This document shows, in pieces, positions 4,100 through 17,151 of a stretch of DNA of 64,000 nucleotides. This stretch comes from Caulifigura coniformis. GTDB lineage: Bacteria > Planctomycetota > Planctomycetia > Planctomycetales > Planctomycetaceae. The stretch covers positions 3,918,314 to 3,982,313 of the forward strand of contig NZ_CP036271.1 of the NCBI RefSeq assembly GCF_007745175.1, given 5' to 3'. The position numbers were made by a program, and so were the translations under genes. A model generated the notes under the pieces. It made no database searches. It saw only the letters and a program-made list of their open reading frames with translations, and was not told the origin of the DNA. How positions within the stretch are numbered: the stretch's first letter is position 1; the number at the start of each line of letters is the position of its first letter.

Positions 4100-4559
4100 C
4101 AGTCACGCAACAGGGAAGAGGACTTGGGGAGAGACGTTACCGCGAACCCGTTGAGCCCGCGGACGAAACCATCCTATCAACTCCCGCCCGCCCACAAAAA
4201 CGGGCCGATTCACACATTCCGAAGAACCGCCCCTATCAGGAGCGTCGGCGCGGATGGTCCCCGCCCGGCCGTGGAGTCGCTGCGACCGTGCCTCCCGGCT
4301 CTGGATGGGCCGATTCCCCACAGCCCTCCAGACTTTGCAGCAGTCGGGTTGGACGGATTGCCGAACCGAATCCCAGAGATTGCGCGGCCTCAGTTGTTCG
4401 GTTGTTGACCTCGGTTTTTTTACAGCCGTACAATTTCCGGTCGCCCCCGCAGAATTTGCCAGGATTCCCCGGCCTGCGGAATCGTCCGCGATCGCACACG
4501 GTTCGTTTCCTCCCCATCTCGAGTTCAGGCCCACTCACCAGGCGACTGGAAAGCCCTCA
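4100..4559. other. Intergenic region between divergent envelope gene groups
   Basis: About 460 bases without a credible gene. Overlapping open frames here run antisense to or extend real genes and lack starts with ribosome sites. It holds the promoter-like pair described at 4405-4434 and an implied untranslated leader of about 120 bases ahead of the gene starting at 4560. No strong hairpin was seen. Confidence 0.6.
4405..4434 (+). promoter_or_regulatory. Putative sigma-70-type promoter of the envelope gene run
   Basis: TTGACC at 4405-4410 and TACAAT at 4429-4434 are separated by 18 bases, with a T-rich spacer. This matches 5 of 6 bases at each hexamer. Transcription would start near 4441, about 120 bases before the ATG at 4560. 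Confidence 0.5.
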
Positions 4560-5231
4560 ATGGCGTCGTTCGGTAAAACTCTGGTGGTCGTGTTGTTTCT
4601 GAGCAGCGTTGCGTTTCTCGGATTCGCGATGGCCTCGTTCTTCGGCGGACCCAACTGGACCGCCGAGATGCGAGAGCTCGAAGGCAAAGAACCCCACCAG
4701 GGGTTCGTGTTCAACAAGAGCGAATCCAACCCTGCCAAGTGGAGCGTCAAACGCACCGGAAACGATCAGCAGATTTCCAGCTCGGTCGTGCAGGGTGAAG
4801 TCGTTGCCGCGGCCTTCAAGTCGCTGACCGCGTCACAGCAGACGGAAATCCAGGCACTGAAAGATCAGGAAGCGGCCTTCAAGGAACGCAAAGAGGCCTA
4901 CGTCGCCTCGCTTCCCGTCGACGAAGCCTCCCTCGACGCCTCTCGCACGCAGCTGCTGTCGATTCTCGAACAGACGCGGGCCCAGGGATCGCAGCTGGCT
5001 GTCCAGGTCGCTGCCAAAACCGAAGAAGCCCAGAAGATCGAACAGCGGATCGGCGAGCGGCGTGACGACGTCATCCGCCTCCGGGCCCAGCTCGACGAAC
5101 TGCGGGCGGATGCCTACAGGCTTCAGGAACTGAGGACGGAACTGAACGATCAGCTGCAGCAACTCGTGTCGCTCGTCGACAGGGCGGAAGAGCGGAACCA
5201 GCAGCTGAAGTCGACAGCCTCCGTGAAGTGA
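4560..5231 (+). CDS. Membrane-anchored coiled-coil protein, unknown function
   Basis: A 223-residue protein not recognised as a named family. An N-terminal hydrophobic helix (about 5-28) should anchor it in the inner membrane. From about residue 85 the sequence is a long charged, Gln/Glu/Arg-rich helical region with heptad-like spacing, ending in QLVSLVDRAEERNQQLK. The open frame extends upstream, but the ATG at 4560 is preferred because it directly precedes the hydrophobic helix; GGAAAG lies just upstream. It is first in a co-oriented group with a second coiled-coil membrane protein (78 bases downstream) and a 46-residue membrane protein, suggesting a membrane-tethered complex. Function is unknown. 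Confidence 0.75.
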   Translation: MASFGKTLVVVLFLSSVAFLGFAMASFFGGPNWTAEMRELEGKEPHQGFVFNKSESNPAKWSVKRTGNDQQISSSVVQGEVVAAAFKSLTASQQTEIQALKDQEAAFKERKEAYVASLPVDEASLDASRTQLLSILEQTRAQGSQLAVQVAAKTEEAQKIEQRIGERRDDVIRLRAQLDELRADAYRLQELRTELNDQLQQLVSLVDRAEERNQQLKSTASVK

Positions 5232-5309
5232 CGCCCGGTCGCGTTTTATCGAATTGATGGGAACTGACTCCGAAAGCCACCCGGCTGCCGGAGCTCGAAC
5301 GAGGTCAGC

Positions 5310-6179
5310 ATGTCCAACGTCGGCAAACTGCTGGTTTTCCTCCAGCTCACTCTGAGCGTCGTCTTCGCGGCGATGGCGGGTGCGGTCTACACCGCGCACA
5401 CCAACTGGAAGGCGACGGCGGAGAAATCCAAGGCGGACCTCGCCACCAAGGAACAGGACCTCTCCCGGGCGATCACCAACGCCGAGATGGAGAAGAACGA
5501 CCTGACCACCCGCCTCAACGCGGAAAAGGATCAGCGTCTGAAGGTCGAGGCCGACCTCCAGACGGCTCAGGTCCAGGTGGCCGCACTCCAGAAGGACAAG
5601 ATCGACCTGCAGTCGCAGAACTCCTCCCAGACCGCGCTCGCCGAAACCAAGGCCAGCGAGGCAGGGTACCGGAATGAAGAAGCCCTCAAGCAGCGGCTGA
5701 TCAACAGCGACGTTCAGAAACGCCTCGACGAAGCCCAGCAGGAACTCCGCCTCAAGACCGACAGCCTGTTCGTCACCCGCACGGAACTCGCCGATCTGGA
5801 AGCCCGCCACACGGCCCTCCTCCAGGAGAAGGCCAGTCTCGAAAAAATCCTGGCCAATGCAAACGTCAATTTCGACCTCCGCTTGGTCAACAAGCTCCAG
5901 TCGCCCCCGCCGGTGGTCGATGGCATCGTGGAGGAAGTCCAGAACGATCGCACCGGACGGGCCAAGATGCTCGTCATCTCGATCGGAGCGGATGATGGTT
6001 TGATCGTCGGCCACGAACTCGATGCGTTCCGCTCGGGTGTCGACGGCCGGCGGGCGCAGTGGCTCGGACGCGTGCGGGTGGTCGACACCCGTCCCGACCA
6101 GGCTGTGGTTGAAGTGGTCCAGACGGCCAAGAACGGCATTATCGAAAAGGGAGACAATGTCACGACGAAGCTCCTCTGA
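5310..6179 (+). CDS. Membrane-anchored coiled-coil protein with C-terminal beta domain
   Basis: A 289-residue protein with a signal-anchor helix (about 6-28), a long coiled coil (about 30-180) rich in Lys, Glu, Gln and Ala, and a compact C-terminal domain (about 190-289) whose alternating strands, such as LVISIGADDGLIVGHEL, loosely resemble the beta domains after coiled coils in MreC-like or FlgT-like envelope proteins. That resemblance is an impression from pattern, not a detected homology. The ATG follows GAGG at good spacing. The 3' end overlaps the next small gene by 23 bases, which implies coupling. With the preceding gene it makes a pair of similar topology that may oligomerise through the coils. 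Confidence 0.8.
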   Translation: MSNVGKLLVFLQLTLSVVFAAMAGAVYTAHTNWKATAEKSKADLATKEQDLSRAITNAEMEKNDLTTRLNAEKDQRLKVEADLQTAQVQVAALQKDKIDLQSQNSSQTALAETKASEAGYRNEEALKQRLINSDVQKRLDEAQQELRLKTDSLFVTRTELADLEARHTALLQEKASLEKILANANVNFDLRLVNKLQSPPPVVDGIVEEVQNDRTGRAKMLVISIGADDGLIVGHELDAFRSGVDGRRAQWLGRVRVVDTRPDQAVVEVVQTAKNGIIEKGDNVTTKLL

Positions 6180-6297
6180 GGACGCCGCTCCGGACGTCTA
6201 CACCGCGCTCCTGTTCGCCTCAGTGGCGGCCATCGCGGTCGGGATCATCCTGCTGATGTTCGAACTCGGCAGCTACAACAACAACCTGGGCGGCTGA
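6157..6297 (+). CDS. Small single-span membrane protein (46 residues)
   Basis: A 46-residue protein starting with ATG inside the end of the preceding coiled-coil gene, in another frame, with a strong ribosome site (AAAAGGGAGACA) just upstream. It has a polar N-terminus (MSRRSSSEDAAPD), one membrane helix (about 16-36, VYTALLFASVAAIAVGIILL) and a short polar tail ending in NNNLGG. The ribosome site, the 23-base overlap and the clear helix make it more likely real than random. It is probably a partner of the two coiled-coil membrane proteins. No family is recognised. Confidence 0.7.
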   Translation: MSRRSSSEDAAPDVYTALLFASVAAIAVGIILLMFELGSYNNNLGG

Positions 6298-6360
6298 TCG
6301 TCGGGCCACGGCTCCGCGGATCTGCTAGAATGCCTCGTCACTTCCGACGGGGCATTCGCC

Positions 6361-7716
6361 ATGTTGCGTCCGCATTTCTACGCCGTGATCCTCCTTTCCC
6401 TCCTGGCAGTCCGGCCTTGTTCGGTGCTCGCCCAGGGGACCGGCAACAACGGAGGCGGTGGAAATAACAACGGCGGCAACAACAGCGGCGGCATCCTGAT
6501 TGATCCCGAGGGCGTGCTCCGCCCGATGCAGGTTGTCCCCGCTCTCAATGCGAAGCGCCGCCCGGGGGCCAAAGACCTCGCGCCCGGAAACGTCTGTGTC
6601 TCCCTCCGTCGACTCAACGAAATCCTCAGGCAGGCCCCGCCGGACGCCCTTCCCGCGGAAGCGCACATCCTGGGAGGCCTGACGCGCATTGATCAGGTCG
6701 TCGTTGATGCCGAGGCACGAGACATCCTGCTGATCGGTCCCGGTGAAACTCAGGCCGCCGGAGCAGCGCCCACATTCCTGGGAGAGACGTCGGGACGTGC
6801 GCTGATGCGCACGGGAGATTTCCTGACGATGCTCGATGTCGCGAGGGGAGGGGGGCTGCGTGTGCGCTGCTCCATCGATCCCGATCCCGCCCGCCTGAAG
6901 AAGTACAACGAAACGATTCAGTCGACCGCCGGCAGCGTCAGCTTCAAGAACGCCGCGGCGTGGTACGAGGGACTGTCGCGGATCCTCGGCCGCCAGATCG
7001 TCACGGTCGAGGGAGTCCCCGGCGATTCCCGGATCGGCAACGTCCTCGCGGCAGCCGACTATTCCATGAAACGCATCGCGCTCGGGCTGGAGCCGTCGGG
7101 CGTGAAGGAAATCCGGCCGCAGCTCGCCTACGCCGCGGGTGACACCGGCGCCACGATGAAACGCTGGTGGTTCGCGCCGCTGTACGAGGATGTCGCTGTC
7201 AGTCCCGATCGAACTCTGTTTCAGTTCTCAGGCCAGCGCGTGAAGCTTTTGGCGCAGGAGGAATTGATTCTCGACAGCGGCCAGCGAGTGGACAGTGACC
7301 GGAATCGCCCCAGCACTGAAGCCTTCGCACGCCAGTTCACGACCCACTTTGAAGAACTCACGGCCGCCCGGCCGATCTTTGCCGACCTGCGAAACCAGTT
7401 CGATCTCGCAGTCACGGTATCGCTGCTCGTGCGAGAGCGGCTTCTGGAGCGCATGGACCTCGAGTTCCGGCCGTCCCCCGCAGTCATGGACACGCTCTCT
7501 CCGAAATGTCAGACCCCGCGATTCGTCGATTCCGGGGCCAACATCCGCCGCGTGAACCGCACCACGATCGTCGGTGTCGTGGGCGGCGTCGTCCTCACGC
7601 CGTCTGCGGTCATCGCGAATGAAGTTCCAATCAGGGAGCCCGGCCGCGTGGCAGACCGCCGCGCTCCCGATGACCTGGCGGGATCACAATTCGCGTGGCC
7701 CCTTCAGGTTCCGTAA
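6361..7716 (+). CDS. Secreted DUF1598-like protein
   Basis: A 451-residue exported protein with a Sec signal peptide (about 1-24, cleavage near VLAQG), followed by a Gly/Asn-rich linker (about 27-45) and a globular region. The central part (about 75-290), with LRRLNEILRQAPP and repeated short strands, looks like the planctomycete DUF1598 family; I recall this from family pattern and could not test it. Function is unknown. It lies 63 bases after the small membrane protein gene and is co-oriented with the two giant proteins downstream. A TAGAAT motif near 6325 might be a -10 element, but no matching -35 was found. Confidence 0.75.
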   Translation: MLRPHFYAVILLSLLAVRPCSVLAQGTGNNGGGGNNNGGNNSGGILIDPEGVLRPMQVVPALNAKRRPGAKDLAPGNVCVSLRRLNEILRQAPPDALPAEAHILGGLTRIDQVVVDAEARDILLIGPGETQAAGAAPTFLGETSGRALMRTGDFLTMLDVARGGGLRVRCSIDPDPARLKKYNETIQSTAGSVSFKNAAAWYEGLSRILGRQIVTVEGVPGDSRIGNVLAAADYSMKRIALGLEPSGVKEIRPQLAYAAGDTGATMKRWWFAPLYEDVAVSPDRTLFQFSGQRVKLLAQEELILDSGQRVDSDRNRPSTEAFARQFTTHFEELTAARPIFADLRNQFDLAVTVSLLVRERLLERMDLEFRPSPAVMDTLSPKCQTPRFVDSGANIRRVNRTTIVGVVGGVVLTPSAVIANEVPIREPGRVADRRAPDDLAGSQFAWPLQVP

Positions 7717-7891
7717 GAACCGAGCCTTCCTTACAGACCGCGGGAACTTCCGGGGAATGGCGACCGCCGACGGCCGAACAACTTTCGGACGTTCCATTCT
7801 TGGCGTAAACTTGGACTGTCTGATGGGACGGCCGGTCTCTTCTCGGGGACGCTCGTTTCAGGCCGTATTTCACCTTGTTCAAAGTCGCGTC

Positions 7892-10800
7892 ATGACGGGC
7901 CGGGATCCTCAGCCGACGACCCGCCAACGCTCAAACCGTGCGTCAGGGCCGCACTTCCCTGATCGCCTCGTCTGCTCGCTCCTCCTTGTTCTGTTCCTCG
8001 CCTGGAGCAGCGTCCTTTCCGCCCAGGAAAGTGCACCCGTTCGAACGGGCGCATCGGCCCCCGCGGGAGGATCGGTCGGCGGAATGGGGAGCGGGGCGTC
8101 CGCGGTTCTGGATGACCGGAAGAATGCCGCCGCAGACCCCGGGCAGGCCCCCGATGTCCCGCTCGACGTCGAACCCCTCCCGCCTCCTCCCTCGATCCCG
8201 ACACCCGCGCCCGTTCCCCCTCCGGTCGCCGACATCGCTGCTCCTCCGTATCACGTCTCTGAGGTCGCGATCGACGGCGTCATGAACGGCGATCGCGCCG
8301 ACCTCACCGTCCGCATCAATATCGAAGTCAACCGGGCTGGTGGCTGGTTCGATGTGCCGCTTCGTCTCGGGCAGGCCCATATCTATCGTCAGAAGTCCTC
8401 GGGCGTCGGATCGCGCCTCCCCGGCCAGCCCGCCCTGCAGGATGATGGGCTGCACTGGCGATTCTTCGGCCAGGGCCAGCACACTCTCGAATTCGAACTG
8501 GGCGTCCCTGTCCGGTCGACCCCCTCCGGGCGCCAGATGCAGCTCTCTCTCCCCGTCATGCCACCGCTGTTCGAAGCCCAGGTGCGGCTCCGGATTCCGG
8601 GAGGCAACTACATCGTCCGGTCGTCCAATCGCGAAGCCGCGCTGCGGACCGAATTCGACGCCGCGAAGAATGAAACCGTCGTCACCGGCGGCAGCCCGGC
8701 CGGCCGGCTGGAACTCAGCTGGCAGGATCGCAACCTGCGTCCCCCAGCCGATGGAGTCGCCAGCACCACCTACACGCTTCGCCGGCGCGGCGCCGGCTGG
8801 GAGATGGACGCCCAGCAGACGCTGATTCGCATGGAATCCCCCTCCAACGAAATCCTCATCCGTATCCCCGAGGGCTTCGAGTTCAACGACGTCACAGGAC
8901 CGCTCCTCGAAGACCGCGAAGAGGTGCCTGGCCGTCCGGGGTGGTTCCGCCTGAATTTCGTCGAAGGGGTCTCCGACCGCATCGAGCTGCGCTGGAAACT
9001 GGAGCGTCCGCTCGGGGCCACCCAGCCACTGTTGAGTCTCTCGGGATTCGAGATCGAAAGCGTTCGGACTCATGACGGCCGCATCCGCATTCTGCCGGCC
9101 CAGGGGCTGCAGTTGTTCCCCCAGCAGTCATCCTTGCGCTACGTCGAACGCGTGGAAGATATCCCCCCGGTCGGGGAGCCTCCCGCAATGCTGACGTATG
9201 CCTTCTCCGCCAGCGACTGGCGGCTGACCCTCGAACTCAGGCCAATCGAGCCGCTGTTTGCGTGCCGGCCGCGCGTCGACCTGAATATCAGGGAAGACCT
9301 CGCCACCCTGACCGCCGCGTTCGATGTCCACGAAGAGGCCGGCGAGGTGACGCGCATGGTCGTCGATGTCTCGGCCCTCGAGGCTGCGGGATGGATGCCC
9401 GCCATCGGTCCACGTCTCGCGTCCTCGGGCGCCACGATGACCAGGAGTGGCTCGGAAGTCACTTTCGAGTGGGCCTCCACATCCAGTGGTCCGAAGTTCG
9501 CCGAACTGCGCTACGAACGATCCCTGAAGGGGGCCGAGTTCAACTTCCTGGTCCCGCCTCCGGTGCCGGCGGCCACCTGGACGGAACCCGCCGTCGTCAC
9601 CGTCCGTGCGGCGGATCCCCTCCGGATTGATGTCCGGGCCGCGACTCCAACGTCCGAACCGCAGGTCGAATCCGCCGTCCCTTCCGAAAACTCGCGGCTC
9701 ATCGGCGCGTTTCGTCAGGCCGTTGCATCTGAGCCGCTTGCCGTTCACGGATCCGTCGAAGCCCGGACGATCTCCGCGACGGCCAACGTCTATGTGGAAG
9801 CGGTCGAAACCCGCCGGATGACCGTCGAACAGCAGGTCATGCTGGACGTCCGTTATGGAAGAATGGACGCGCTTCGCTTGAACGTTCCGCCGGAATTCCC
9901 GGTGACGCCCGGGGCGGAGCGGCTCGCGTTTCAGGTTTGGGTCGACGGCCGGGAAGTCACCGACCTCGAGTGGACCTCCGGTTCCCTCCGCGTCCCGTTC
10001 GCCCGCCCGCGGATTGGCCTTATCCGCGTGTCGATTCGCTACGCCCTGCCGCGGACGCCTGAACAGGCGGGAATGACGGTGCCCGTCGTTCTGACACCGG
10101 ATGTGAAGTTCCACGAACTGACGATGGAGGCCTCGCCTGCGGCCCGCACCGGGATCAACGTCGCCGATTCCAATTGGAAGGAAATCGTCACCTCCAGCGA
10201 TCGTCGTCGCTGGAGCGCCGATCCGCAGGCCGAGTCTGCCGCAATCACTTTCGAAAGCGGCCGGCCCCTCGTGCAGGAACGGGCCGTCATCTCGGCAGCA
10301 TTCATCCGCACCGAGTTGACTCCCGGAGGAGTCCATCGCACGGTCGCCAGTTATGAGATCGACCGCAGCGGCGACACGCTCACCATCACGCTTCCCCCCT
10401 CGGCGACTTCGCAGGGGCTGACGATCAACGGCCTGCCTGCCGAGACTCTCCCAACACCTTCCGGAACCCCCGGAAACGTGGTCACGATGAAAGTTCCCCC
10501 CGCCGCAGGAGACGGAGCGACCCGGCTGCGGGTCGCCTACGACGTCATGCCCCAGGGAGGCAGCGGTGCGATTGGCCGCGTACGAGTCGCATTCCCGCAG
10601 TTTGTCGCTGGAACCTACATCGACCAGCTGATCTGGAAAATCGACCTCCCGGAAACGGATGTCCTCTTCTGTTCGCCGCCCGGAATGTCCCGGCTGTTTG
10701 AATGGCAGAGGGTGGGCCTCTTCTGGCGCCGCGTTCTTTCACCCGCCTACCTCGCGACGTTGAAGGACGCCGGCTTCGAAGCGGACGGAACGCAGACGGG

Positions 10801-11221
10801 CGTCGAAGGCTACGCCTATCGCCAGATTGGCGCGCCGGCCAGCCTCGTCATCTGGACGATCGACAGGTCGCTCGTGATTCTGATCGGGGCAGGGGTCACG
10901 CTCGTTCTCGGCTTCGCCTTCTGGACGATCCGCAGTCTGCAGAATGTCGTCGTTCTGCTCTTCCTCGCGTTCCTCATCAGCGTCGCCGGCCTGTGGTTCC
11001 CCGAAGCAATCCAGGTGTTGCTGCAACCGGCGCTTGTCGGCGTCGTGATGGCCATGGCGGCCACGGCCGTGGATGGTCGGACCCGCCGCCGGCGCTACCG
11101 CTCTCCGGCCCGGGAATCCTCGATCCAGCCCGCCGTGCGCACTCCCGCTCCCAAGGTGAATGATCCGCTGCGATCGACGATCCTCCGCCCCACCGGCAGC
11201 GACCATGGAGTCCCTCGATGA
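7892..11221 (+). CDS. Giant secreted, C-terminally membrane-anchored protein (1109 aa), unknown
   Basis: Starts with ATG at 7892, directly before a basic N-terminus and a signal helix (about 27-50, ending SVLSAQE); the longer open frame upstream overlaps the previous gene and has no signal sequence at its head. After a Pro-rich linker (about 85-115) come roughly 850 residues of predicted beta-rich sequence, then three membrane helices (about 983-1012, 1017-1035, 1041-1060) and a basic tail. A recurring unit of strands around [IL][ND]G.PA is visible, for instance INGLPAETLPTPSG near 844. No named domain or catalytic motif is recognised. The stop overlaps the next giant gene by ATGA, so the two are very likely co-translated and may form one complex. 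Confidence 0.85.
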   Translation: MTGRDPQPTTRQRSNRASGPHFPDRLVCSLLLVLFLAWSSVLSAQESAPVRTGASAPAGGSVGGMGSGASAVLDDRKNAAADPGQAPDVPLDVEPLPPPPSIPTPAPVPPPVADIAAPPYHVSEVAIDGVMNGDRADLTVRINIEVNRAGGWFDVPLRLGQAHIYRQKSSGVGSRLPGQPALQDDGLHWRFFGQGQHTLEFELGVPVRSTPSGRQMQLSLPVMPPLFEAQVRLRIPGGNYIVRSSNREAALRTEFDAAKNETVVTGGSPAGRLELSWQDRNLRPPADGVASTTYTLRRRGAGWEMDAQQTLIRMESPSNEILIRIPEGFEFNDVTGPLLEDREEVPGRPGWFRLNFVEGVSDRIELRWKLERPLGATQPLLSLSGFEIESVRTHDGRIRILPAQGLQLFPQQSSLRYVERVEDIPPVGEPPAMLTYAFSASDWRLTLELRPIEPLFACRPRVDLNIREDLATLTAAFDVHEEAGEVTRMVVDVSALEAAGWMPAIGPRLASSGATMTRSGSEVTFEWASTSSGPKFAELRYERSLKGAEFNFLVPPPVPAATWTEPAVVTVRAADPLRIDVRAATPTSEPQVESAVPSENSRLIGAFRQAVASEPLAVHGSVEARTISATANVYVEAVETRRMTVEQQVMLDVRYGRMDALRLNVPPEFPVTPGAERLAFQVWVDGREVTDLEWTSGSLRVPFARPRIGLIRVSIRYALPRTPEQAGMTVPVVLTPDVKFHELTMEASPAARTGINVADSNWKEIVTSSDRRRWSADPQAESAAITFESGRPLVQERAVISAAFIRTELTPGGVHRTVASYEIDRSGDTLTITLPPSATSQGLTINGLPAETLPTPSGTPGNVVTMKVPPAAGDGATRLRVAYDVMPQGGSGAIGRVRVAFPQFVAGTYIDQLIWKIDLPETDVLFCSPPGMSRLFEWQRVGLFWRRVLSPAYLATLKDAGFEADGTQTGVEGYAYRQIGAPASLVIWTIDRSLVILIGAGVTLVLGFAFWTIRSLQNVVVLLFLAFLISVAGLWFPEAIQVLLQPALVGVVMAMAATAVDGRTRRRRYRSPARESSIQPAVRTPAPKVNDPLRSTILRPTGSDHGVPR

Positions 11222-14200
11222 GTTCCGCTTCGAGCGGTTCCTCGATGCGTCTTCGCGTCGCGCCGTTCATGGCCGGCCTGCTGGCGTCGCTCTGCGTTTC
11301 CTGGGCGGCCGTCGCAACGGCGATTGAACCGCTGCACCCGATGGCCGTCGATGAAGCCTCTGTGCGCCTTCCCGACGGCTGGGCTTCGATCGACCGTGCC
11401 ACCTTTGATGCCTACGCCGCGTCCCTCGCTTCCGGGCGCATCGGCCGCGCCGCGGGCGGTCTGAATCGGGCCCACTACACCCTCCGCCTGATGCCCGACG
11501 ATTCGCTCGTCGGCGAAGCGTCCGGCACAATGCGGCTGTCGGACGAGCCTGCGATCCTTTCGCTCGGACGTCCGAGTTTCGCGGTCAGCAACCTGGAACT
11601 CGATGGCCAGCAGGCCGTCTGGGGATCCGACTCCGCCGGCTCGACCTGCCTCCTCTGTCCAAGCGATGGCGCGGAGATTCGCTTCCAGTGCTCGCAGCAG
11701 GGACTCCGTCGAGGGGATTCCCTCGAGTTCTCTCTCGACTGGCTCACCTCGGTCGCCACTCGCGTGGAACTAAAGGTCCCTGCTGGCCTCCAGGCCGAAA
11801 CACAGGGACTGTTGAAAACGTCCACGGTCAATGAGCCCGATGGAACCGTCACCCTCACCTGTGAAGCGGGGGCGCGTTCCAACTGCACCATCCGATTCCT
11901 GCCGCGGCTGAAAGCGACCGCGGCACGATTCGGAATGGATCTCCGTCAAACCCTCTCCGCAACCTCGACCCGGGTTCTGGTCCAGTCCGCGGTGGGCATT
12001 CTGAGTTCGTCAGCAGGCCCCGCCGTCGCCGAAGTCGAAGTTCCCGACGGCTTCACGCTGCTGCGTGCGGCGATTGGCGGCGACGAACGGCTCCCCCTCG
12101 AACATCCTGTCGGGCAGGCCGGACTCGTCCGGATTCCGCTGGGAGACCTCGCGGTCGGCCAGCGGGTCGACCTGCGCCTGGTGATGGAGCGTCCCGCCGA
12201 TTGGTCGCAACCTCTTTCGGTCAGCCGCATCGTGCCGCGAAATGGCCTCCTGCTGCGCGAGGAGGTCGTCCTGCAGTTTGAAAAACCTCTCGAGATCATG
12301 CACGTCGAGGCGCCCGACTATGAACTGGTCGCTCTCGCCGTCGAACCCGCCCGTGAAGCCTGGACCTATCGCGGCACGTCCGGCAACGGAACTCTCCTCG
12401 TCACCGCACGGGCCCCGGCCGCCGAGTGGTCTGCCGAGTACTTCGTCAAACGCCGTCAGAACGGCCCCCGCACGGAGGTCCTCACCCTTGTCGACCTCAA
12501 GTCCATCCGGTCGCCCCTCTTCGAGTTCGATATCGATGTCCTGAAGCCTTGGAAGATCGTCTCGGTCTCCGCGCCCGACGCCGTCGGAAACCCCGCGTCT
12601 CTCACCTTCCGCCCGCTCGAGGAATCGGAGACGGCCGTCCGATATCGAATCCTCCTCCGGGCGCCGGCCACGCCTCAACGCGGCAGTCTCGTCACGATCG
12701 CAATGGCCACCCAGTCCAACACGGCGGACTCCTCGCTGCCTCGGCCAGTGGCGGTTCCCCGCCACGGCGGCGGCGATGCTTATCTCCTGCTCACCCGCCC
12801 CGATGAACTGGCCACTCCGCCGGCCGAGCTTGGCCCCGAAATCGCGCTGAACTCCCTTCGTCCCGGCCTGCGAAGCAATGCCTTCTTCGAACCGGTTCGC
12901 CTCGGCGCCGCAACCATCCACCGCGGTGCGTCTTCCCACGCCATCGATCAGTTTCGACAGCCGCCCCGACCGGGCGCACGCGTCAACCAGCCCCACGAAG
13001 TCGTTCCTCAGCAATTGCTCAAGGACGCGCTCGCCGTCGTCGAACTCCAGACCGTCGTCGATAGCGCCACCCGTGCAACCACTCATCGCGCCCAGGTCGT
13101 CTTCGACTCGGCCGTCGACCTGTCGGGAGCCTCGATCGGGTTTGACGGGGAGTGGTCGTTGATCGAGGTTTTGGGAGATGGTGCTCCCGTCAGTGCATCG
13201 CCGGTCGGACAGGACCTTCGCTTTCCTGAAACCTCCCGGACCGTCCGCGAACTGGTCATCCGCTACAGCACCCCGACAGCAGGGGAGAGCATTCCACGTC
13301 GCGATCGCGTGCCCTGGCCCCAGGTCCCCTCACACGTGCAGCGCTGGAACTGGCGCATCGAGACGCCCACCGATCGTCGCGTCACGGCGATCGATGCTCC
13401 GTTCGAGTTCGTCGGTGGCATGCGCCGTCCTTCCGTTCGTGAGCGCCTCCTGGCGCCCTTGAGCCGCCCCTCAGGCGCACCGATCTTTAACCCGTTCAAT
13501 GGCGACGCGTGGCGCGAACTCTGGGAGCCGACCACCCTCTCGCAGCGATTCGAATCGAACGACTCGTCACTGATCTCCGTCGCCGGCGAAAGCTATCCCG
13601 GCGCAACCACAATGGTCTCGTGGTCTGAGCGGCTTCTGGACGGCTTGAACTGGTCATTGATGATCGGCGGGATGCTCGCCGTCGCCATGCTTCGGCGTTA
13701 CCGCCGCGGCACGTTCCGATTCGTCGCCGCGGTCTCCGCGATCGCCGCAACGTCCGCCTGGCTGCTGCCGCCCCCGTTCGGGGCGATGGCCGGCGCAACC
13801 CTCTGTGGCTTCCTGATCGCCGGCTGCCTGCCGCGTCGCTTGGTGACGCCATGGCCCGGCTCGGTCGCGCGCTCCACAGGCACGCCCGTTCCAAGGTTTG
13901 TCGGCGTCACCGGTGTCGCGATTGTCTGCGGCCTTTCTTCCATGGTCGTTGCGATGGCCCAGGTTCAGTCGTCCAGGCCAAACGTGCTTCTGCCGCAGAA
14001 TGACGGGTTGCCAACCTCCACCGCTTTCGTTTCCGAGGCCGTCGCCAGCGACATCGGCGCCTGGCAGCGCGATCGCCTCGGGCCTTCCTTCCTGCTTCGC
14101 AGCGCCAGGTATGACCTGGCGGTCGATGAATCCGAAGTCGCGTCAGCGAGCGTCGAGTTCAACCTGGTGATTCCCCGCCCCGACGCGACCAGGTCGGTCC

Positions 14201-17151
14201 AGATTCCTTTTGAGGGACTGACATTTCGAGGTCCCGACGCTGTCCAGATTGACGGCCAGCCGGCCCATTTCGTCCCCACGGCCGACGGCGCCGGATTGAT
14301 CCTCTCGCTTCCAGAGTCCCCGGACGCAGTCCCCGGCGAGCCTGCGTCGCATGTCGTCCAGATGCAGGCCTCCCTCCGTGTTCCAGCCGGGGGGCTGAAA
14401 CGCGAGTTCGCCCTGATGATCCCTCGCTGCGCAGCTGCCGTCGGCGCCATCAACAGCTCGGCCGGCCCGATTCGCGATCTGCGTTCGTCCGCCCGCGGAC
14501 GGACCCAGGGCGATGCTGGATCGGTGACCTGCGCCCTCGGAGCGACCGGCCGCTGGCATGCCCGCTGGCGGGGAACGGAGAGCCCCGAGCGATCCACTCT
14601 TGATTCCACCGTCACCGCCCGCGCCGAGTCCGTCGTCACCGCCGAACCACTGACGCTGCTCGTTCAGACGCGGCTCATTTTCGAAACCCCTGAACTCGCC
14701 GATCCATTCGCGTCGGCCCGACTCGAACTCGAGCTCCCTCAGGGAAGCATCGTGGCGTCCGTCGTCGGACAGACTCTCGCCCACTGGCGCACCCGCACTG
14801 ACGGCGAACGACTGCGGCTGCTGCTCGACTTCACCAGCCCGCCGATCGTCGGCCAGTCCGTCGACTTCCAGTTCGAACTCCCGGTGCAGCCCGCGGCGGA
14901 AATCGAAATCCCACCCATTCCGTTGCTCCCGCCGCCGCGCCTCAGCAACCACCAGTTCGCCTTCGTCACGAGTCCCGATTTTCAGCTGCAGATGATTTCC
15001 AAGCCGGATCCCGAGTCCGGAGTGTGGGCCATCGAGCCGTCAGAGGCCTCCTTCTCACTCCGGAAAGATCGCGGACTGCCGATCCCGGGGGCGGCCCTGG
15101 AACTTGATCGGCCTCTGCCGCTCGCCTTCATGCTGTCGCGGCGCTCCACCGGCAGGACGGCCGAACTCGAACAGTCGCTCGTCTCCGCCGGCTCGTCGGT
15201 CGCCTGGACTGGAACGGCCCGGATCGAAACCTCCGTCCGCCCCGGCTTCCTCTACGAATTCCGGATCGATCCAGCGATCGAAATCACCTCCGCCAGCGTC
15301 GTCGAACGGGACGTCGAACGACTGAGTCGCTTCATCCGCGAAGGAGACCGTCTGCTCCTCGTCGTGGGGGACGATCGCCTCGGCACGAAGAATGTCCGAC
15401 TGGCGGGAAAGCTCCATCTGGAAGCCGGGACGATCAGCCCCGTCCCACGATTCGACCTCGCGAATACGATCATCTCCCGCCGCGAAATCGTTGTGACTTC
15501 CTCGACAGACCAGTTGCTCCAGGTCCGTCGGAGCAGTGCAGCGTCCCCCCTCGTCAGCAGTGGCGACACCGAATGGGAACCGCAGGTCCCGTCCAGTCGC
15601 CGCCTGGCGCTCACGGGCCGGGAATCCGACTTCGAAATGCGCTGGATCAATCCTGCCAGCCCCCTCAAGCTGGTCGAGTTCCTGACGCTTCCCGCCGATG
15701 GAAGCGCCGAGTGTTCCATCGAATGGCAGCTGGAATCCAGCCAGCAGCTTCCAGCCACCATCGCCATCAACGCGCCGGCCAGCACCCGCATCGATGAGTC
15801 CTCGGATTTCACCGAAGAGGGCCGGCGGATGCTCCCGGATGACCGCGTCCGGATCGAGCTGCAGTCGAAATCGAGTCGCCTGCCGTCCGCCAGGGTGCTG
15901 ATGACCTCGCCCATGCAGCAGTCGATTGACCGCTCCGGTGCCCTGCCGCGTCTCATCGACCTTTCCGTCGCGCCGGAAACCTACCTCGCCGTCCCCCGTT
16001 CGCTCGTCCCCTCGTGCGACGTTCCGGGAGACTTCCTTGATGAGCTGCCGGCAAATGCGCCCGCCATGTGGGCCGCCCCATTCACCACTCGTCACCTCCT
16101 TGTCTTCGCCCTGTCTGGCACGGATTGGCGAGTCTCGTCCAGCACCGAGGCCGAAATCGTCGGGCAGGCCACTGCAGAGATCGTCACCTTCGATGCTTCG
16201 GAAAAGATTCACGGCCAGACACGACTGACAATCAGCCCCTCTCGTGTCGGGATTCTCAGGTTCGAGCCCGCCTCCGGCGGTGCCCTGAAAGCGGTCCGCG
16301 CGTCGACCGGAGCATTGCTGGAACCCGCCGGCGACGGCGTCTGGGAGCTGCTGCTGCGTCCTTCGCAACCGGTCGCGGTCGTCTCCGAATGGACTGCGCC
16401 CCCAGGGCAGGGTGGGGCGCCCGGCCTTCCACCCGGGCCGCTGACCCGCGGGCTCGAGTTGCAGGTCACCTATCTCGCGAGAGTTCCCTCGGGAGAAGCA
16501 ACACGCTGGAGCCCCGAGGTCCTGGAACGTCCCGCAGGCGCCGAACTCCTCGTGGCCGCCCGCCTTGAAAACCTCCTCTCCGCCGCCGGCAGGCTTCCAA
16601 TTGGCGTCACCCCCCCCACCTGGCTGAGAGAAGAATTGCTCGCCCTCGGCCAGCTCGGTCGCAATTCACCCCGGCTCGGGAGACTGGCGGCGCAGGTCGA
16701 AAGCCTCATCGATTCGTGGTCTGCCCGCACCAGCGCCGTGACCGCTCCCAACTCCGTCGCCCCGGCGTCGTTGCTGCTGACCAGGTCGCCCGAGCAGGTC
16801 CTCGCTGATGGGATGCTGATCGCCGCGGCGGACCCCGACGCGGTCGTCGAACTCCCCACCGGCCACTCCGCCTGGTCGATCTCGCGCCGCCTGTTTCAGG
16901 GAACGTTCGTCTCGGCCTGGTTCATCGTCTGGGCGTTTGTCGTCACCAAGGGGGGCGAGTGGGTCGCCCGCCGCCAGTGGGCGGATCGCCTCGCCAGTCA
17001 CCCCGGGGTCGCCCTCATGAGCATTGGGCTCCTTTGGTGGCTGTTCTTCACACCCAGCGTCTTCGGCGCACTGCTCGCGTTCGCCGCCGCGCTGTGGGAG
17101 CTTCTCTGCTGGTCGCGCAACAGATCCGCGGGCTCCCCGGCTGCCTCATGA
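11218..17151 (+). CDS. Giant polytopic envelope protein (1977 aa), unknown
   Basis: Begins at the ATGA overlap with the preceding gene. An N-terminal signal or anchor (about 12-35) is followed by about 770 residues of beta-rich extracytoplasmic sequence. A central cluster of about four membrane helices lies near 806-916, then about 970 more beta-rich residues, and C-terminal helices near 1893-1911 and 1926-1964. The two outer halves look like related modules: LDGQQAV near 126 and IDGQPAHFVPTADG near 1010 occupy similar places, and the latter resembles INGLPAETLPTPSG in the partner protein. No enzyme motif is recognised. The 3' end overlaps convergent uppP by 6 bases. Coding is supported by unbroken length and uniform codon use; function is unknown. 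Confidence 0.85.
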   Translation: MSSASSGSSMRLRVAPFMAGLLASLCVSWAAVATAIEPLHPMAVDEASVRLPDGWASIDRATFDAYAASLASGRIGRAAGGLNRAHYTLRLMPDDSLVGEASGTMRLSDEPAILSLGRPSFAVSNLELDGQQAVWGSDSAGSTCLLCPSDGAEIRFQCSQQGLRRGDSLEFSLDWLTSVATRVELKVPAGLQAETQGLLKTSTVNEPDGTVTLTCEAGARSNCTIRFLPRLKATAARFGMDLRQTLSATSTRVLVQSAVGILSSSAGPAVAEVEVPDGFTLLRAAIGGDERLPLEHPVGQAGLVRIPLGDLAVGQRVDLRLVMERPADWSQPLSVSRIVPRNGLLLREEVVLQFEKPLEIMHVEAPDYELVALAVEPAREAWTYRGTSGNGTLLVTARAPAAEWSAEYFVKRRQNGPRTEVLTLVDLKSIRSPLFEFDIDVLKPWKIVSVSAPDAVGNPASLTFRPLEESETAVRYRILLRAPATPQRGSLVTIAMATQSNTADSSLPRPVAVPRHGGGDAYLLLTRPDELATPPAELGPEIALNSLRPGLRSNAFFEPVRLGAATIHRGASSHAIDQFRQPPRPGARVNQPHEVVPQQLLKDALAVVELQTVVDSATRATTHRAQVVFDSAVDLSGASIGFDGEWSLIEVLGDGAPVSASPVGQDLRFPETSRTVRELVIRYSTPTAGESIPRRDRVPWPQVPSHVQRWNWRIETPTDRRVTAIDAPFEFVGGMRRPSVRERLLAPLSRPSGAPIFNPFNGDAWRELWEPTTLSQRFESNDSSLISVAGESYPGATTMVSWSERLLDGLNWSLMIGGMLAVAMLRRYRRGTFRFVAAVSAIAATSAWLLPPPFGAMAGATLCGFLIAGCLPRRLVTPWPGSVARSTGTPVPRFVGVTGVAIVCGLSSMVVAMAQVQSSRPNVLLPQNDGLPTSTAFVSEAVASDIGAWQRDRLGPSFLLRSARYDLAVDESEVASASVEFNLVIPRPDATRSVQIPFEGLTFRGPDAVQIDGQPAHFVPTADGAGLILSLPESPDAVPGEPASHVVQMQASLRVPAGGLKREFALMIPRCAAAVGAINSSAGPIRDLRSSARGRTQGDAGSVTCALGATGRWHARWRGTESPERSTLDSTVTARAESVVTAEPLTLLVQTRLIFETPELADPFASARLELELPQGSIVASVVGQTLAHWRTRTDGERLRLLLDFTSPPIVGQSVDFQFELPVQPAAEIEIPPIPLLPPPRLSNHQFAFVTSPDFQLQMISKPDPESGVWAIEPSEASFSLRKDRGLPIPGAALELDRPLPLAFMLSRRSTGRTAELEQSLVSAGSSVAWTGTARIETSVRPGFLYEFRIDPAIEITSASVVERDVERLSRFIREGDRLLLVVGDDRLGTKNVRLAGKLHLEAGTISPVPRFDLANTIISRREIVVTSSTDQLLQVRRSSAASPLVSSGDTEWEPQVPSSRRLALTGRESDFEMRWINPASPLKLVEFLTLPADGSAECSIEWQLESSQQLPATIAINAPASTRIDESSDFTEEGRRMLPDDRVRIELQSKSSRLPSARVLMTSPMQQSIDRSGALPRLIDLSVAPETYLAVPRSLVPSCDVPGDFLDELPANAPAMWAAPFTTRHLLVFALSGTDWRVSSSTEAEIVGQATAEIVTFDASEKIHGQTRLTISPSRVGILRFEPASGGALKAVRASTGALLEPAGDGVWELLLRPSQPVAVVSEWTAPPGQGGAPGLPPGPLTRGLELQVTYLARVPSGEATRWSPEVLERPAGAELLVAARLENLLSAAGRLPIGVTPPTWLREELLALGQLGRNSPRLGRLAAQVESLIDSWSARTSAVTAPNSVAPASLLLTRSPEQVLADGMLIAAADPDAVVELPTGHSAWSISRRLFQGTFVSAWFIVWAFVVTKGGEWVARRQWADRLASHPGVALMSIGLLWWLFFTPSVFGALLAFAAALWELLCWSRNRSAGSPAAS

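Follow-up and report, generated by a model that had tools for sequence, protein, structure and literature searches.

A coiled-coil and small membrane protein pair with mreB as its recurrent neighbour in Planctomycetota, and the six-gene run that carries it in Caulifigura coniformis

Planctomycetes grow and divide without FtsZ. The described proteins closest to those treated here are MreC (PF04085), a bitopic coiled-coil protein, and the C-terminal domain of FlgT (PF16538), to which the DUF1598 family (PF07643) may be added. A published survey describes MreC as patchy in planctomycetes and RodZ as missing from them (PMC5147048). The present analysis concerns six genes on the + strand, at 4560-17151 of a 64,000-nucleotide stretch (the window) of the Caulifigura coniformis genome, which is 6.76 Mb long and assembled as a single contig (NZ_CP036271.1). 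The genes coil1 and coil2 and the gene of a small membrane protein make up module A (4560-6297), a DUF1598 gene is module B, and two genes for giant exported proteins are module C (7892-17151).

An earlier note on this DNA had described six genes in one direction, encoding uncharacterised exported or membrane proteins that include a DUF1598-like one and lack recognised enzyme motifs. Gene calls confirm the six co-oriented genes, the exported or membrane nature of the products is supported, and a scan of the six proteins against Pfam and NCBIfam found no enzyme family at cut-off. The two gene overlaps from which the note deduced coupled translation (6157-6179 and 11218-11221) are real and recur in other genera, which is consistent with such coupling. 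The literature searched showed no title or abstract opening that names these genes, but they may be mentioned in a 2012 comparative-genomics paper on planctomycete morphogenesis.

Coil2, the small membrane protein and mreB

Judged by gene neighbourhood, the recurrent partner of coil2 is mreB. Coil2 (5310..6179, + strand) is a protein of 289 aa predicted to consist of a transmembrane (TM) helix, a coiled coil of ~150 residues and a C-terminal six-strand beta domain. In a profile search that covered Planctomycetota only, 105 of 119 genomes gave a coil2 match at E<=1e-3, the weakest matches (e.g. G002, G034) being short, partial and near the threshold. The mreB family PF06723 is over cut-off in all 119, where G036, G089 and G116 have weak matches only, which may be Hsp70-like. 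On the same strand and 0.16-1.7 kb downstream of coil2, mreB is found in 72 of the 105 genomes, and all 72 fall among the 100 genomes outside the window's family. Inside the family, sampled as 61 genomes with the host genome included, coil2 stands 0.3-1.2 kb before a same-strand mreB in 11 of the 58 genomes that have both.

The linked stretches look like mreB operons. Most of the 11 in the family continue with mreC and a gene for a PBP2-type transpeptidase (in L186 by Pfam, in the others by gene maps); L205 has no called mreC, and the L208 stretch ends after mreB. Twenty distant loci were fetched, and mreB is present in 15 of them, with mreC and/or PBP2 profile matches after it in 13. From the usual operon order an MreD (~170 aa) would be expected after mreC. 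The gene after PBP2 was considered as RodA and rejected, as Pfam shows it to be MnmA. Eight upstream genes of ~520-580 aa from the 20 distant loci were tested with Pfam and all eight are Lnt; the lnt gene directly adjoins coil2, save in L254, where one gene lies between. The simplest history would be an ancestral order lnt-coil2-small TM-mreB, with repeated separation of the pair from mreB in the window's family; in the window's genus coil2 has moved away from mreB. Genome G012 has two tandem coil2-profile matches before mreB (L249 7469-9163), an apparent separate duplication. In the other species of the genus (G087, locus L320) mreB has a PilT-like ATPase gene at a distance of ~3 kb, which may be a remnant of an ancestral PilT-STAS-coil-mreB cluster.

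In the family, coil2 forms part of a larger arrangement with coil1 (4560..5231, + strand, 223 aa), whose ATG at 4560 lies within a longer frame opening at 4254. The two proteins each have one N-terminal hydrophobic helix followed by a coiled coil and fall in the same BLAST cluster; coil1 is a coil2 paralogue and presumably arose by duplication. Coil1 adjoins coil2, with coil1 first, in all 53 family genomes that carry both. The comparison of loci shows the promoter, coil1, coil2 and the small-protein gene to be a conserved unit. The promoter is the sigma-70-like pair TTGACC-18-TACAAT at 4405..4434 (+ strand), present in both species of the genus. The earlier note had singled it out, and in the window alone it is at chance level, with one such site found in 18 kb and 1.6 expected. 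A pair matching at least 9 of 12 positions is nevertheless found within 250 bp upstream of coil1 in 24 of 30 family loci (2.2 expected), with an 18-nt spacer in 21 of the 24; among the six misses is L090, whose flank is cut so that the wrong place was examined. It is this conservation that makes the promoter credible.

The third gene of the module (6157..6297, + strand) encodes a single-pass membrane protein of 46 aa, and its start codon is embedded in the end of coil2, which it overlaps by 23 nt (6157-6179). All 30 family loci have a homologue behind coil2, with an overlap of 20-26 nt in 26 of them and an ATG 70-135 nt past the end of coil2 in four. Named relatives of coil2 are mostly of Planctomycetaceae type (e.g. 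Thalassoglobus, Gimesia, Schlesneria, Planctomicrobium, Fuerstiella), and among the 63 named loci the homologue is present in 61, the remaining two being cut by the contig end. In 19 of the 20 distant loci (not L248) coil2 is followed by a small open reading frame (ORF) with one hydrophobic stretch, also present in four loci without an adjoining mreB; shuffled gaps would give 0.7 of 20.

Among the 30 family genes, codon positions 1, 2 and 3 differ by 0.35, 0.23 and 0.56. The embedded ATG is created by an Asn codon. Of the 21 family loci with that residue, 18 use AAT there, compared with 74 of the 275 remaining Asn codons (p 1e-7); for the named loci the figures are 27 of 29 and 111 of 388 (p 4e-12). 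The test leaves out 8 family and 23 named loci without the Asn residue, L069 and 11 named loci, and its p-values are too small, since related sequences are not independent. By these sequence criteria the small protein is real, and the embedded start codon is apparently under selection.

A possible scaffold role and its alternatives

The AlphaFold2 (AF2) model of coil2, built from 53 sequences, has a mean predicted local distance difference test score (pLDDT) of 88.7, with a helix at residues 3-183 and the beta domain at 204-285. Its predicted template modelling score (pTM) is only 0.39, a low value that need not surprise in a long rod. Modelled by itself (58 sequences), the beta domain reaches pLDDT 81. 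The best fold match of this barrel (VIA) is FlgT, with PDB entry 8z5n at Z 10.5 (85 residues, root-mean-square deviation (rmsd) 3.1) and 3w1e at Z 9.7, and FlgT takes ranks 1-2 in both structure searches, the best Foldseek E-value being 1.7e-3. With 1.5 A per residue, the ~150 helix residues beyond the membrane would measure about 22 nm, close to the width of a Gram-negative periplasm.

Gene order and these models suggest that coil2 and the small protein probably form an undescribed, periplasm-spanning scaffold of the elongasome, and the suggestion is made with some reserve. Coil2 would insert N-in/C-out in the membrane, its coiled coil would cross the periplasm to end in the FlgT-like beta-barrel, and the rod would thus bring the barrel to the wall or the outer membrane. 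The small protein, made together with coil2, might pack on the coil2 membrane helix and link coil2 to MreB, MreC and PBP2. Module A would then act like the bitopic coiled coils of the MreC type.

Several observations weigh against this scaffold. In the host genome coil2 is 3.4 Mb from mreB, and in the family the two are linked in only 11 of 58 genomes, being apart on one contig in nine (the host genome included) and on different contigs in 38. Over the phylum, 33 of the 105 genomes are unlinked, eight with both genes apart on one contig and 25 with different contigs or no strong mreB. The operon position, measured as adjacency, thus holds for most of the phylum and a minority of the family, and not for the host genome. 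In the distant loci the small ORF is identified mostly by position, the small-protein profile matching only 4 of the 20. The barrel is a widespread fold, and F1-ATPase barrels reach Z 9 to 9.5, within about 1 Z of FlgT. Coil2 matches a profile of planctomycete MreC with a probability of 32% and E 4.8e-4, and reversed controls of other profiles reach 3e-4. Finally, a study of Planctopirus limnophila reports growth, morphology and budding unchanged after deletion of mreB (PMC6952346), and because this deletion has no phenotype, an elongasome part may be dispensable in that species.

A bolder version makes coil2 and its embedded small protein a planctomycete-specific membrane anchor of MreB, standing in for RodZ and core to growth or budding; this is doubtful. 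It is unlikely that the pair instead serves its PilT/STAS or Lnt neighbours, for example as a scaffold of a type IV pilus or of envelope transport. Such neighbours do recur: of 16 family coil loci outside the genus, nine have a divergent PilT-like T2SSE gene near coil1 and eight a STAS gene, both are met again in named loci, and Lnt is upstream of coil2 in eight distant loci. The PilT and STAS genes are, however, on the opposite strand, whereas mreB is linked on the same strand, in many families and more often (72/105).

Less likely again is that coil2 is a diverged duplicate of MreC. The order of helix, coiled coil and beta domain, seen in the AF2 model and by hydropathy, is that of MreC, as is the genomic place, and Listeria MreC is the tenth Foldseek match (E 8e-3, rmsd 13). 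A separate mreC (PF04085) is nevertheless present in the same operon, the profile match is at control level, and coil2 of the window has no PF04085 match in Pfam at E<=1, where the only hit is an unrelated one (E 0.23). Coil2 as an MreC was accordingly set aside for want of sequence support, and the weak similarity that coil1 and coil2 show to various coiled-coil proteins was put down to composition.

Coil2 and the small protein supply a short list of candidates: two small genes at the head of an mreB operon, conserved across most of the phylum. A genome-wide transposon data set exists for P. limnophila (PMC10632474).

Modules of the six-gene run

The same 61 family genomes were searched with each large protein, and pairwise linkage was scored once per genome, at the best-scoring place, a few second-giant hits having additional rows. 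Homologues are widespread: coil2 in 59 genomes, coil1 in 53, the first giant in 57, the second giant in 47 and DUF1598 in all 61. The complete run is found only in the host genome (G000) and in G087, both of the window's genus, on the same strand and in the same order; beyond the genus no conserved order of all six genes was found among the 61. The giants stay together, within 5 kb in 39 of 46 genomes and within 5.7 kb in two more, being separated by 1.3 Mb in one genome and lying on different contigs in four. A distance of 10 kb or less separates coil2 from the first giant in only 3 of the 55 genomes with both; for DUF1598 and the first giant the figure is 2 of 57, and for coil2 and DUF1598 it is 4 of 59. 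Many of the unlinked pairs lie on different contigs of draft assemblies and say little; in all nine genomes with coil2 and the first giant on one contig as non-neighbours, the distance is 0.15-5.7 Mb. From these counts it follows, as far as gene order can tell, that the run is a juxtaposition of three separate modules, seen only in this genus.

The earlier note had suggested that the whole run may build one envelope structure and proposed that its order be looked for in other planctomycetes; the genes are as described, the single unit is not confirmed, and homologues lie mostly apart, the outcome that the note had named as refuting its suggestion. A single six-gene operon is very improbable and was rejected on synteny: strand and order are identical in the two species of the genus, modules A and C are side by side in G154, if divergent, which counts against their separation, and DUF1598 is 4-5 kb from coil2 in G132 and G155 with STAS and PilT genes between, but the rarity of these links and the promoter-like TAGAAT boxes enriched before DUF1598 and the giants stand against it. 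Seven of 30 loci, the window among them, have TAGAAT upstream of DUF1598 (0.57 expected; L152 and L160, with cut flanks, are misplaced in this count). Upstream of the first giant it is present in 8 of 30 loci, of which the window is not one (1.31 expected). The enrichment favours separate transcription of the modules and is not proof of it.

Module B, the DUF1598-family secreted protein (6361..7716, + strand), matches PF07643 at E 5e-19 (68.7 bits, gathering score 25), which bears out the earlier assignment. It represents a distinct paralogous family and has its own promoter-like box: TAGAAT at 6326..6331 (+ strand), the candidate -10 box of an independent promoter, is also present in G087. 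An inverted repeat at 6328..6357 (+ strand) between the small gene and DUF1598 has 12-nt arms, 92% complementary, a 6-nt gap and no T-run. Two BLAST clusters, one of them of the MotA/ExbB family, adjoin the giants in G153 and DUF1598 in G130 (loci L172 and L203).

Module C opens with the first giant (7892..11221, + strand), which has a signal-like N-terminus, one unit of ~1,000 aa and three C-terminal hydrophobic segments. Its start is more likely at 7892, where a signal-like segment follows, than at the GTG at 7574 inside DUF1598. The second giant (11218..17151, + strand, 1,977 aa), which overlaps the first by ATGA at 11218-11221, is built of two tandem units, both homologous to the first giant and both with hydrophobic segments at their end, and by hydropathy it too has a signal-like N-terminus and C-terminal hydrophobic segments. 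The profile of the first giant matches the two parts of the second at E 1e-28 and 1e-33 (probabilities 99.8 and 99.9), and the two parts match each other at E 3e-24 (99.6), none of the unrelated and reversed control profiles doing better than 3e-4. Since three units occur as separate genes in two distant genomes (1112, 1237 and 1138 aa in L331; 1163, 1419 and 1447 aa in L332), the second giant looks like a fusion of two units. These comparisons show the two giants to be one three-unit system, made as one unit and two fused units. They are a second uncharacterised family with a readable domain history.

The first-giant profile matches 44 of the 119 phylum genomes. In 29 of 30 family loci a long open frame begins within about 0.4 kb after the first giant, with a 4-nt overlap in 20; these frames were not each shown to be homologues of the second giant. 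The giants were rejected as members of a known family: among 28 relatives and the window's first giant, no Pfam family matches more than a single protein, and a profile search of the PDB was empty at E<=1. With low confidence they may be proposed to form a periplasmic scaffold or adhesin that is anchored in the membrane and has no relation to module A.

The run is preceded, on the opposite strand, by genes for a DUF58 protein and a TgpA-like transglutaminase. A UppP gene is convergent downstream of the giants in the window, in G087 and in three other fetched loci, and in 17 of 30 family loci the first giant has a same-strand gene of the inositol-monophosphatase family no more than 1.5 kb upstream. 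The host genome has a second giant pair (1137 + 2648 aa; G000:C1:3490000-3509900, L329 2491-13950, - strand), which adjoins a T2SSE/MshEN ATPase gene and a short ORF with a pilin-like N-terminus, as judged by eye and with no Pfam match. In G149 the giant pair adjoins Tad pilus genes (by Pfam an A24 prepilin peptidase, CpaB/RcpC, Tad-like and T2SSE), and BLAST clusters place the same Tad genes near the pair in G130 and an A24 peptidase in G119 (loci L180, L181 and L168 for the three genomes together). Outer membrane efflux protein (OEP) genes are near giant arrays in G048 and G011 (L330, L332).

Comparison with described systems

The protein of module B is above the curated cut-off of DUF1598, and no difference from that family was found; the family is uncharacterised, and the literature searched yielded no paper on it. 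The FlgT C-terminal domain (PDB 3w1e, 8z5n) is the best fold match of the coil2 barrel, with F1-ATPase barrels close behind. The sequence match is far below curated level, with sub-threshold FlgT_C matches in 5 of 28 coil2 relatives (E<=0.1, best E 0.017), and the fold is a common one. MreC differs from coil2 in having no significant sequence match to it and in being encoded separately, and coil2 has a single beta domain of ~90 residues and a much longer coiled coil than MreC. What the two share is the succession of membrane helix, coiled coil and beta domain, together with a gene in the mreB operon.

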